Part shown: positions 10,125 to 13,661 of the stretch, one piece after another
Position numbering within the stretch: position 1 is the stretch's first letter
Layout: each line of letters begins with the position of its first letter
Assembly (NCBI GenBank): GCA_025451845.1
Contig: JANWJS010000020.1
Span: forward strand, 186,001-250,000
Reading direction: 5' to 3'
Origin: Steroidobacteraceae bacterium
GTDB lineage: Bacteria; Pseudomonadota; Gammaproteobacteria; Steroidobacterales; Steroidobacteraceae
Length of the DNA: 64,000 nt
Notes under the pieces: model-generated
What the model was told of the DNA's origin: nothing
Database searches by the model: none
The model's input: only the letters and a program-made list of their open reading frames with translations
Translations under genes and position numbers: made by a program

Positions 10125-10233
10125 GCACCACGAGCTGCGACGGAGGCTGATTCTCACCACGTGGGCCTGCCGGGCATTGCCGAGCTGCAGGCGAGCGCAA
10201 ATAGCGGCGCAATTGCTACAATCATTGCGCATT

Positions 10234-10585
10234 GGGCCTGTAGCACAGCGGTTAGTGCAGGGGACTCATCGAAAAGGGTGCCTGTGCGCGGAAACGTGCA
10301 CAGTGGACGGGATGAATTCAGGGGAACCTTCGAGCTGCGGACTCGCGAGTCCCGCTCATGGCAATCCTGAGCCGAGCCGGCGGTACACCGCTGGAAGGTG
10401 CAGAGACTACCTGAGGGCTCCAGTGCCCTTAATGACAGGCAGGAGCATCCCGCACCCACACGGACGCAGCGAGCCGCAGATCGAGCGGCGCGCTCCGTTC
10501 GCGGGTGAAGAGATAGTCCACTCCCGGCGGAAACGTCGGGGCAGAGTGAATCCCTTGGTCGTAGGTTCGAATCCTACCGGGCCCA
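10234..10585 (+). tRNA. ileX: tRNA-Ile(CAU), interrupted by a group I intron
   Basis: The 5' exon is 10234-10269 and the 3' exon 10549-10585. Joined, they give a 73-nt cloverleaf: acceptor GGGCCTG/CGGGCCC (one G-U pair), D stem GCAC/GTGC, anticodon stem GGGGA/TCCCT around the loop CTCATAA, T arm GTAGG-TTCGAAT-CCTAC, discriminator A. CCA is not encoded. The CAU anticodon could be Met or Ile, but the acceptor and the TGGTCG variable/T region match the lysidine-type tRNA-Ile(CAU) (E. coli ileX/ileY) rather than elongator Met. This tRNA reads AUA codons after TilS modifies C34. The intron follows the last anticodon base. A -10-like TACAAT lies 12 nt upstream. Confidence 0.93.
10270..10548 (+). 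ncRNA. Self-splicing group I intron in the tRNA-Ile anticodon loop
   Basis: 279 nt between exon base T10269 (the U of CAU) and A10549; it ends in G as group I introns must. Core elements are visible: a P4/J-type segment ATGGCAATCCTGAGCCGAGC (from 10358), the R element GTGCAGAGACTA (10398-10409) and the S element AAGAGATAGTCC (10508-10519), whose ACTA/TAGT parts pair to form P7, the guanosine site. The internal guide GTG at about 10278-10280 can pair with exon CAU with a G-U wobble at the splice site. The Azoarcus intron occupies the same tRNA at the same position and has the same CAU/GUG logic, suggesting subgroup IC3. No homing endonuclease frame is present, so mobility would need help in trans. 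Confidence 0.93.
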
Positions 10586-10775
10586 GACTCGACCTCAATT
10601 TGCAGATCAGAGGAGCGCCAGAGCGTAGTGCCGCCTCCTTCGGGCGGGGCGCGGGCACGTTTGTCGCTAGGTCTCTGGGCGCAGGTCCGCGCCGGGCGCT
10701 GGGCTTGCCTCACGCGTGATCCGGCGCGGGCGGAGGATCCGCTTTCCCCCGGTCGCGCTCACGATAAGGCAGTTG

Positions 10776-13661
10776 ATGGCCAGCCGGAGACTTTCCACCT
10801 ATCGCGCCAAGCGCGACTTCAGCCGCACGGCGGAACCGTCTGGCAGCGGCACTGTGGCCCGCTCGGCGCATCTGCGTTTCGTCATCCAGAAGCACGCGGC
10901 CCGCCGGCTGCACTATGACCTGCGGCTGGAGCTCAATGGCGTGTTCAAGTCGTGGGCGGTGACCCGGGGACCGTCGCTCGATCCGGCCGACAAACGCCTG
11001 GCCGTCGAGGTCGAGGATCATCCTCTCGCATACGGCGACTTCGAGGGCACGATTGCGCAAGGGCAGTATGGGGGCGGGACCGTGCAGATCTGGGACCGGG
11101 GCTTTTGGGAGCCACAAGTCAAAGGTAGCGCGGCTCAGGCCTTGGCAGCGGGGGAGCTGAAGCTGACCCTCGCGGGTGAGCGGATGCGCGGCGGTTGGGT
11201 GCTCGTGCGGCTGCGCAACTCGCGGTCGGGAAAGCGTCCGAGCTGGCTACTCATCAAGCATCGCGACGAGTACGCGCGCCGGGGTGACGGCATGCTCCTC
11301 GAGGAAAAGGACCGGTCGGTGGCCTCGGGCCGAACGATGGAGGACATCGCGGCCGGCCGTGGCCGCGGACCCGAACGTTTCATCACATCGGGAGGCAAAG
11401 CCGGGCAGGCCAATGCAGTATGGCATTCCAACGCAGCGCCCGATCCGGCCGCCGGCGGCATCGCGTCCCGAGTGAATACGCGCGTGGCGGCGAAGGGCCG
11501 CCGGCCGCCAACATCCAAATCGAGTGAGGGCGGCAAGTCGCGCGCGCACGGTCCCCAGGGCCGCGGCGAGGCTCGCGGTGGCACCCCAGCCCGCGGCGCT
11601 CGCGCTCCCGTGCCGAAGTTCATCGAGCCGGCGCTGTGCCGGTTGTTGCCGCGGCCGCCGGAGGGCGACGACTGGGTGCACGAGATCAAGCTCGACGGCT
11701 ATCGGCTGCAGCTTCGGGTGGAAGGCGGCCGCGCGGTGTTGTCGACGCGCAAGGGACTCGACTGGACGGGGCGATTCGCCGCGATTGCCCGCGCGGCCGC
11801 GGCTTTGCCGGATTGTCTCGTCGACGGCGAGGCAGTGGCGCTCAACCGCAACGGCGTGTCCGACTTCTCGGCCCTGCAGGCGGCGCTTTCGGAGGGACGC
11901 GACTCGGAGCTGATACTCTTTGCGTTCGATCTCATGTTTCTCGCGGGTCGGGACCTGCGGTCGTTGCCGCTCGATCAGCGCAAGGAAGAGCTGGGCAGAG
12001 TGTTGCAATCCCTGCCGAAAGCGAGCCGCGCCCGGCTGCGATATCTCGAGCATTTCACCACCCCGGGCAAGGCGGTCCTCGAGTCCGCCTGCCGTCTGTC
12101 GCTGGAGGGAGTGATTTCAAAACGCATCGATGCGCCCTATGATTCGGGGCGGACCGGAAGCTGGACGAAATCGAAGTGTCGCGCCGGCCACGAGGTGGTG
12201 ATCGGCGGTTGGACGTCGGAGAGCGGCAACTTGAGCTCGCTCATCGCCGGCGTGTACCGCGAGGAACGCCTCATTCCCGTGGGGCGCATCGGCACCGGCT
12301 TCAGTGCCGCGAAAGTGCGGCAGCTGCTGCCGCGGCTGAAGAAGTTGGCGAGCAACGCGAATCCCTTCGGCGAGCGCGTGCCGGTACCCTCGGGCCGGCA
12401 CATCCATTGGCTGAAGCCGCAGCTCGTCGCGGAGATCGAATTCGCGGGCTGGACGGACGGCGGCAACATCCGCCAGGCGGCGTTCAAGGGACTGCGCGAG
12501 GATAAGCCTGCTAAAGAGGTGCGCGCGGAGACGCCGGCACCGCTGGCGGGCGCGGAATCCAACGTACAGATTGCTTCCCCCAGCATGTCGACCCGGGCGT
12601 CGGCCCACGTACGCGCGAAACGGGCCCCTCGCAAGGGAAGACGCGCATCGGATCACGGGTTACAGGAGACAACGCGCTCAGCCGGACCGATACTCGGCGT
12701 TGCCATTTCCAATCCCGACAAGGTGCTGTGGCCGGACGCGGGCGATGGACGTCCCGTCACCAAGCGCGAATTCGCTGAATACCTCGCGTCCGTCGGCGAA
12801 TGGCTGCTGCCGCACATCGAAGGCAGACCCTGCTCCCTCGTCCGTTGCCCGGACGGAATCGGAGGGCAGCGGTTCTTTCAACGCCACGCCATGCCTGGGC
12901 TTTCCAATCTGATCAGCCTCGCGCGCGTGTCCGGAGAAGGCAAACCCTACGTCCAGGTCGATCGCATCGAAGGGCTCGCCGCGCTCGCGCAGATTGCGGC
13001 GCTCGAGCTGCATCCGTGGAACTGCGCTCCCCAGCAGCCGGAGGTCCCCGCGCGGCTGGTGTTCGACCTCGATCCTGCGCCGGATGTCGGCTATGAGACG
13101 GTGATCGAGGCAGCGCGCGAGTTGCGTGAGCGGCTCGAGCAGCTGGGCCTGGAGAGTTTTCTGAAGACGACCGGGGGCAAGGGACTGCACGTCGTGACAC
13201 CTTTCACACAGCCCCGCAGCAGAGCGCTCGACTGGGCGTTGGTGAAGTCCTTCGCGCGGGAACTCTGCGCGCGGATGGCGGCGGACAGTCCGCAGCGATA
13301 CGTCATCAACATGGCCAAGCGCGTCCGGACCGGCCGGATATTCCTCGACTATCTGCGCAATGATCGCACGGCCACCGCCGTGGCGCCGCTCTCCGCGCGA
13401 GCGCGCGAAGGGGCGCCGGTGTCCATGCCCCTCACCTGGGCGCAGGCTCGGGCAGGGCTCGATCCGGGAAAGTTCACGATCCGCACCGCGCAGGCACTGT
13501 TGGAACGCAGCGGCGCCTGGGACCGGTACGCCAAGTCCTCGCGGCCGCTGCTGCCAGCCATCGAGAAGCTGGCGGGTCGTGCGCCGGGGCGGCGCGCAGG
13601 CGGCCAGTCTCGCACCCGGGGCCTCGCGCGAGCCGAGTCGCGGACGGGCGCGTCTTCATGA
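10776..13661 (+). CDS. ligD: DNA ligase D (phosphoesterase-ligase-polymerase)
   Basis: 961 residues from the ATG at 10776 (AAGG 9 nt upstream). Three modules appear in the order 3'-phosphoesterase (about residues 20-190, with HAARRLHYDLRLEL carrying the catalytic His/Asp/Arg), ATP-dependent ligase (about 285-590, nucleotidyl-accepting Lys305 in EIKLDGYR), and a C-terminal primase-like polymerase (about 640-930, metal-binding VFDLDPAPD). A low-complexity Lys/Arg/Gly/Ala linker joins the first two modules. LigD repairs double-strand breaks by non-homologous end joining together with Ku; no ku gene is present in this window. The gene lies alone between the tRNA and the hybrid kinase. Confidence 0.95.
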   Translation: MASRRLSTYRAKRDFSRTAEPSGSGTVARSAHLRFVIQKHAARRLHYDLRLELNGVFKSWAVTRGPSLDPADKRLAVEVEDHPLAYGDFEGTIAQGQYGGGTVQIWDRGFWEPQVKGSAAQALAAGELKLTLAGERMRGGWVLVRLRNSRSGKRPSWLLIKHRDEYARRGDGMLLEEKDRSVASGRTMEDIAAGRGRGPERFITSGGKAGQANAVWHSNAAPDPAAGGIASRVNTRVAAKGRRPPTSKSSEGGKSRAHGPQGRGEARGGTPARGARAPVPKFIEPALCRLLPRPPEGDDWVHEIKLDGYRLQLRVEGGRAVLSTRKGLDWTGRFAAIARAAAALPDCLVDGEAVALNRNGVSDFSALQAALSEGRDSELILFAFDLMFLAGRDLRSLPLDQRKEELGRVLQSLPKASRARLRYLEHFTTPGKAVLESACRLSLEGVISKRIDAPYDSGRTGSWTKSKCRAGHEVVIGGWTSESGNLSSLIAGVYREERLIPVGRIGTGFSAAKVRQLLPRLKKLASNANPFGERVPVPSGRHIHWLKPQLVAEIEFAGWTDGGNIRQAAFKGLREDKPAKEVRAETPAPLAGAESNVQIASPSMSTRASAHVRAKRAPRKGRRASDHGLQETTRSAGPILGVAISNPDKVLWPDAGDGRPVTKREFAEYLASVGEWLLPHIEGRPCSLVRCPDGIGGQRFFQRHAMPGLSNLISLARVSGEGKPYVQVDRIEGLAALAQIAALELHPWNCAPQQPEVPARLVFDLDPAPDVGYETVIEAARELRERLEQLGLESFLKTTGGKGLHVVTPFTQPRSRALDWALVKSFARELCARMAADSPQRYVINMAKRVRTGRIFLDYLRNDRTATAVAPLSARAREGAPVSMPLTWAQARAGLDPGKFTIRTAQALLERSGAWDRYAKSSRPLLPAIEKLAGRAPGRRAGGQSRTRGLARAESRTGASS

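Follow-up and report, generated by a model that had tools for sequence, protein, structure and literature searches.

In the window, by which we mean the whole 64,000-nucleotide stretch of DNA analyzed here, a tRNA-Ile(CAU) gene at positions 10234–10585 (+ strand) is interrupted after U36 by 279 nt, which raises the question of what the interruption is, to which known introns it is related, and how it came to be there. Our account as a whole, which we regard as highly probable, is that the precursor is spliced along the course predicted below, that the interruption belongs to a gammaproteobacterial lineage of group I introns marked by a P7.1 hairpin and distinct from the IC3 intron of Azoarcus, and that within the genus it has been passed on mostly by descent with several exact losses.

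A group I intron in the tRNA-Ile(CAU) gene

The interruption is matched by the Rfam group I model RF00028 over positions 10257–10540 (55.3 bits, E 2.7e-11), just ∼5 bits above the cut-off of 50, and nothing else in the 64 kb reaches an Rfam gathering score. The first-pass annotation, which had placed a 279-nt group I intron in the tRNA gene at 10234–10585 and had proposed a covariance-model search as the check, is borne out. The intron is more stable than all of 200 dinucleotide shuffles (z −4.21), and its unconstrained minimum-energy fold shows P2, P3, P4, P5, P6, P7.1, P8, and P9 (Table 1). P7 is missing from this fold because P3 and P7 form a pseudoknot; its two strands are able to pair, as had been proposed for the R and S elements, and the predicted pairing of the internal GUG guide with the CAU that ends the 5′ exon can likewise form. 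The group I marks present are the P3, P4, P6, P7 core, the U·G at the 5′ splice site, and the terminal G. A chance match was rejected, and at the level of sequence we consider the interrupted tRNA-Ile(CAU) gene with its group I intron to be confirmed as real and the class assignment to be beyond doubt.

Related introns were obtained from 164 pattern places and gave 146 unique sequences of 203–334 nt. A GTG, which on its own is often expected by chance in such a stretch, lies within the first 80 nt of all 146 and is part of GGTG in 140, while the terminal G found in 146 of 146 is no independent evidence because the extraction rule demanded it. None of them contains a homing endonuclease frame, the longest stop-free stretch in the 146 being 106 codons, in agreement with the earlier statement that the window intron has no endonuclease gene.

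ARAGORN reports no tRNA in the raw 64-kb window and a CAT tRNA in the joined exons (73 nt), which it labels Met as it does every CAT tRNA; that the tRNA is Ile2 is our own reading by eye, together with the identical uninterrupted genes of congeners. Among 58 genomes of the genus, 34 have an intron at the site (in one of these, G053, the gene is divided between two contigs), 16 have an uninterrupted gene, and in eight no tRNA-Ile 5′ half was detected. In 11 of the 16 congeners without the intron the 73-nt gene matches the joined exons of the window letter for letter, and in the other five it has one change; the exon letters are common to 26 of the 33 intron-bearing genus genes that were extracted (window included). 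The intron boundaries are fixed because these congeners hold exact empty sites, and the exons do join to a full tRNA, as had been claimed. TACAAT or a close variant was seen by eye at the same spacing in most of the intron-site congeners inspected. Adjoining the tRNA, positions 10716–13661 (+) hold a 981-codon frame that by eye is DNA ligase D-like.

Table 1. Features of the interrupted tRNA-Ile(CAU) gene in the window.
Feature	Positions	Strand	Basis
Candidate −10 promoter element TACAAT, 12 nt before the tRNA	10217–10222	+	By eye; putative
5′ exon of tRNA-Ile(CAU), last bases anticodon C34-A35-U36	10234–10269	+	Sequence; intron-less congeners
Group I intron, 279 nt, omega-G at 10548	10270–10548	+	RF00028; edges set by uninterrupted congeners
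Guide GUG, pairs with CAU 10267–10269 (P1; U36·G wobble at 5′ splice site)	10278–10280	+	Sequence; related introns
P2 hairpin, GAAA loop	10282–10303	+	RF00028 match; fold
P3 5′ strand GGGATG, partner 10446–10451	10309–10314	+	RF00028 match; fold
P4, TTCAGG 10317–10322 with CCTGAG 10366–10371, around P5 domain	10317–10371	+	RF00028 match; fold
P6 domain	10371–10399	+	RF00028 match; fold
P7 5′ strand GACTA, partner TAGTC 10514–10518 (guanosine-binding site)	10405–10409	+	RF00028 match; sequence
P7.1 hairpin, CCTG 10410–10413/CAGG 10436–10439 and AGGGC 10414–10418/GCCCT 10425–10429, one-sided internal loop TAATGA	10410–10439	+	Covariation; fold
P3 3′ strand CATCCC	10446–10451	+	RF00028 match; sequence
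P8 domain, CACCC 10453–10457/GGGTG 10503–10507, enlarged in the window's clade	10453–10507	+	RF00028 match; fold
P7 3′ strand TAGTC	10514–10518	+	RF00028 match; sequence
P9 hairpin, GAAA loop	10523–10540	+	RF00028 match; fold
3′ exon of tRNA-Ile(CAU) up to discriminator base A, no encoded CCA	10549–10585	+	Sequence; congeners

Following the established chemistry of group I introns, the precursor would fold so that P1 forms between the CAU of the 5′ exon and the guide GUG, a guanosine nucleotide docked in P7 would cut after U36, and the freed U36 would attack after the last intron G and so join the exons. To the joined tRNA a CCA would then be added, as it must be because the gene does not encode one, and TilS would convert C34 to lysidine, after which the tRNA would read AUA. 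It is along this course that we infer splicing, its chemistry, and a dependence on TilS in the cell. By ARAGORN, the tRNA-Lys(TTT), tRNA-Thr(TGT), and tRNA-Leu(TAG) genes of the same genome are likewise without an encoded CCA.

A P7.1 hairpin between P7 and P3

In the window intron a 30-nt stretch that reads CCTG-AGGGC-loop-GCCCT-TAATGA-CAGG lies between the GACTA strand of P7 and the 3′ strand of P3 and folds as a hairpin, P7.1. Among the 146 unique introns this stretch starts with CCTG in 132 and with GCGG in two, is absent from five, which are of the Azoarcus type, and has a different hairpin in seven, all from Burkholderiales except for one record without an order. The stretch was excised in 130 of the 146, of which 115 fit the motif and 15 do not, and all four outer and at least five inner pairs are present in 112 of the 115. 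In a set of 69 distinct sequences of equal length, drawn from 87 of the 146 introns, 99.8% of 621 cells are paired and five of the nine pairs have changed on both sides (44 cells in total). No shuffle in 500 was as high on four of five measures of covariation and six in 500 were as high on the fifth (pair types), and slid pairings reach at most 70%.

Azoarcus sp. BH72 has a group IC3 intron in its pre-tRNA-Ile, at the same insertion site and with a GUG guide. That the site is the same, as had been claimed, agrees with the Azoarcus-type relatives L061, L134, L145, and L278, which share it, and it is through such relatives that the comparison was made. The two kinds are alike in being group I introns in tRNA-Ile(CAU) with a CAU exon end, GAAA loops on P2 and P9, and no endonuclease gene, whereas the window intron has 279 nt, P7.1, and other letters in its P3/P4 core, and the Azoarcus-type relatives have 203–212 nt and no P7.1. 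Hence the likeness to Azoarcus drawn in the first-pass annotation stands for the tRNA and the site and does not extend to the hairpin and the core sequence. Plain identity is ruled out by P7.1 together with the core letters, which are CAAATTC with CCGAGC in the IC3-like and Azoarcus-type introns and GAATTCA with mostly CTGAGC in those of the P7.1 type. An IC3 intron would have no extension between P7 and P3 and a core that goes with those of tRNA-Leu and tRNA-Arg(CCU) introns; the window intron has the 30-nt covarying P7.1 and lies on the opposite side of a 100/100 branch from them. Because its P7.1 lies between P7 and P3, it departs from the IC3 pattern and has the mark of subgroup IA, with one hairpin only and no P7.2 seen.

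The td group IA2 ribozyme is described as resembling the Azoarcus ribozyme save for a P7.1/P7.2 extension between P7 and P3 (PMC4498298), and in the part of that account available the T4 td extension has the same placement as ours; the window intron differs in its one hairpin with an internal loop, its tRNA host, and its lack of an endonuclease. In the accessible text of the tRNAscan-SE 2.0 paper, a missing fMet or Ile2 gene in 36 bacterial genomes is explained by group I introns, the Ile2 cases being Acidovorax and Burkholderia (PMC8450103), and these introns are alike in hiding tRNA-Ile2 from tRNA finders; that text offers no structure and mentions no gammaproteobacteria in the narrow sense, and the Burkholderiales examples in the present set are of the Azoarcus type or a third P7.1 variant, unlike the window intron. 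Cyanobacterial tRNA-Leu(UAA) introns, according to the accessible text, are apparently old and vertically inherited (PMC4033280). With those of plastids they are IC3 introns and, like the window intron, group I introns of a tRNA anticodon loop, but they differ from it in the tRNA, in being without P7.1, and in the core letters. A search of the open-access literature, within the text accessible, found no account of a P7.1-bearing tRNA-Ile intron lineage, and as far as that literature shows the window would hold a group I intron at a known site with an architecture that is new for the site.

Lineage of the intron core

The core tree was built on core columns without P7.1 from the 51 of 70 chosen introns that passed the filter (one of the five Burkholderiales P7.1 variants and none of the GCGG type); it has several long branches, and the label IC3-like is given in it by resemblance. 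The 25 P7.1-type introns, which come from tRNA-Ile, tRNA-Lys(CUU), and tRNA-Arg(UCU), make up one side of the 100/100 branch, and the Azoarcus-type Ile introns group with the IC3-like tRNA-Leu and tRNA-Arg introns. A tree constrained to keep all tRNA-Ile introns in one clade is 22.75 log-likelihood units worse (AU p 0.061). We favor two arrivals at the same bond, one of the IC3 and one of the P7.1 type, which at this p value is not proven.

The alternative is that the Azoarcus-type and P7.1-type Ile introns descend from a single insertion at the site and that P7.1 was gained or lost later. The tRNA, the phosphodiester, and the GUG guide that they share would be explained by it, as would the intermediate-looking hairpins of Burkholderiales and Azonexus (L108, L274, and L073), and the AU test leaves the less likely single-clade tree unrejected; it is at odds with the unlike core signatures and with a best tree that parts the P7.1 Ile introns, along with those of tRNA-Lys(CUU) and tRNA-Arg(UCU), from the Azoarcus-type ones, and we hold one origin to be rather unlikely. 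Outside tRNA-Ile, P7.1 introns were seen in the same order and class in a tRNA-Lys(CUU) (L003, genome G075) and in an apparent tRNA-Arg(UCU) (L267, genome G518).

Distribution of the intron

The first-pass annotation had called such introns rare in gammaproteobacteria, which does not fit the 34 of 58 genomes of the genus or the even sample of the class, in which 24 of 369 genomes (own included), or ∼1 in 15, have C in place of A37. A tRNA-Ile 5′ half was found by pattern in 318 of the 369, and all 24 introns are of the window's P7.1 type. Where such a structurally distinct intron is present, as in these 24 genomes of the class, tRNA finders miss tRNA-Ile2. A pattern scan of genome contigs gave at least 119 stretches with the intron pattern, and the 102 introns extracted among the matches listed comprise 90 of the window's type, five of the Azoarcus type, and seven of another type. 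Among the matches listed, 61 records of which give no order, the window's type occurs in Lysobacterales, Steroidobacterales, Woeseiales, Chromatiales, Nevskiales, Acidiferrobacterales, Pseudomonadales, Rhodocyclales, and Candidatus Rariloculales, and named isolates that carry this kind of intron are Dyella mobilis, Dyella monticola, Luteimonas aestuarii, and Rhodanobacter fulvus. In a sample of the phylum, RF00028 has matches in 34 of 398 Pseudomonadota genomes, in part of which the host was read by eye, and counts by this model are lower bounds because the tRNA-Leu intron of the own genome escapes it.

The extraction left out 20 places, namely 11 at the end of the stored DNA, two that are uninterrupted with T at position 37 (L056 and L140), two with another anticodon-stem pair (L045 and L046), and five by the T-loop rule (L060, L091, L093, L112, and L158). 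The introns of L045 and L046 (genomes G081 and G068) were excised separately; they interrupt tRNA-Ile, measure 312 and 299 nt, and have an additional insert ahead of the guide. Three records that by title are Akkermansia (L060), Opitutia (L086), and Actinomycetes (L102) have tRNA-Ile introns of the proteobacterial type and are likely to be mis-binned contigs. Further RF00028 matches, at L011 (G030), L021 (G020), L041 (G069), L042 (G082), and L266 (G706), are not in tRNA genes and probably lie in protein-coding or phage genes.

Probable descent with loss, and possible transfer

Mapped onto an rpoB tree with 40 genomes, the presence or absence of the intron needs 11 changes, five of them among rows of the genus, against a shuffled mean of 13.1, with 78 and 85 of 500 shuffles as low; it is barely clustered and differs even between sister genomes (G035/G055 and G045/G003). 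Five genomes (G063, G066, G074, G075, and G083) were scored as intron-less for having no RF00028 tRNA-Ile intron, and in G066 and G074 the position-37 pattern agrees. The introns themselves follow their hosts, as shown by the correlation of intron with rpoB distances (Spearman 0.843 for 22 genomes and 0.474 for the 15 of the genus, with none of 2000 permutations as high), from which G051, misplaced on a long rpoB branch, was left out. All seven intron-bearing genomes of one rpoB clade sit in one intron clade (100/99) of 11 introns that have 277–281 nt and an enlarged P8. In the intron tree 11 of the 37 inner branches have good support, and the rpoB and intron trees do not agree on the base of the genus. 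Descent with exact loss fits best because the intron tree follows the host while presence and absence interleave, and from this we infer in which direction gain and loss went, the likeliest history in the genus being descent with several exact losses.

Between orders the picture is mixed. In a tree of 38 P7.1-type introns the 15 Lysobacterales rows need three changes against 12.0 when shuffled (0 of 500 shuffles as low), the five rows of the window's order need five (500 of 500 shuffles as low), and the three of Steroidobacterales need three; one-clade tests by order reject nothing in this tree (p 0.089, 0.438, and 0.441). Purely vertical descent between orders was not supported, the introns of the window's order being scattered, and older transfers are possible because the tree is mixed at this level.

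Frequent horizontal spread, for example through reverse splicing or exchange of the tRNA locus, would produce such a dispersal of the window order's introns among other orders, and it would also produce the mixture of presence and absence between sisters and a clustering on the rpoB tree that many shuffles equal. We nevertheless judge it unlikely, as it is opposed by the agreement of the intron and rpoB trees within the genus, by the seven carriers that share one intron clade, by the absence of an endonuclease frame, and by a tRNA context common to all genus copies. Descent with repeated exact loss remains the reading that we prefer for the genus, where sister species with and without the intron offer a natural gauge of what a ribozyme costs in an essential tRNA and of its loss.

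Reading of AUA codons in the cell

The proviso that another copy of the gene might exist is answered in part, in that no intact second tRNA-Ile(CAU) was found in the own genome (97.08% complete, 58 contigs) by RF00005, ARAGORN, or CTCATAA sites. RF00005 matches 40 places and ARAGORN gives 39 distinct genes, of which two are CAT tRNAs, both Met by sequence, and just two of the 83 CTCATAA sites fall in tRNA matches, these being the same two Met genes. The tRNA list is also without tRNA-Ile(GAU), tRNA-Ala(TGC), and tRNA-Cys, so the assembly has gaps and the absence of a second copy is limited to that extent. TilS is present (171 bits), and in 37 ORFs picked by a longest-ORF rule, each 600 bases or longer, AUA accounts for 41 of the 761 Ile codons and occurs at least once in 25 of the ORFs. 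Because AUA is used, TilS is present, and no second copy was found, reading of AUA in this cell seems to hang on the split gene.

The use of AUA with no other AUA-reading tRNA found also speaks against a decayed, non-splicing intron in a dead tRNA gene, which we consider very improbable: near as the RF00028 score is to the family cut-off, the core helices are all intact, the exons have the same sequence as uninterrupted genes of congeners, nine genus introns align at 89–91.5% over 274–282 nt and one at 86.5%, and changes in P7.1 are compensated across the wider family. We give almost no credence to an assembly or binning artefact, for although most relatives are metagenome-assembled and the odd-titled records (L060, L086, and L102) are probably mis-binned, the intron lies on a 280,719-base contig and the same kind is found in many independent assemblies and in the named isolates.

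A second intron and its meaning

The own genome also has, at L336 (G000:C44, ∼320, − strand), a tRNA-Leu(UAA) 5′ half, an IC3-like intron, and a 3′ half. The intron has the IC3-like letters GTCAAATTCGG, CCGAGC, GAGACTTGACGG, and AAAGTCC and was missed by RF00028 both in the search of the genome and in a permissive scan of the locus, so that we identify it by comparing its letters with those of the tRNA-Leu introns L047 and L048 of near relatives, which RF00028 does find.

We give an even chance to the wider proposal that the P7.1 introns are a second, undescribed lineage without endonucleases that settled independently on the exact tRNA-Ile(CAU) phosphodiester of the IC3 Azoarcus lineage, spread to tRNA-Lys(CUU) and tRNA-Arg(UCU), and persisted over several gammaproteobacterial orders, chiefly through descent and repeated exact loss, with some cells holding both lineages in two tRNAs (here Ile and Leu). 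If so, in cells with both lineages the reading of AUA and of UUA would both hang on ribozymes. Two unlike ribozymes with the same splicing task at the same bond represent a natural pair, and the cultured hosts (Dyella and Luteimonas) make the intron open to testing. Among alphaproteobacterial-looking and other Pseudomonadota (L272, L275–L280, L283–L291, and others), many IC3-like introns were seen in tRNA-Leu and tRNA-Arg(CCU).
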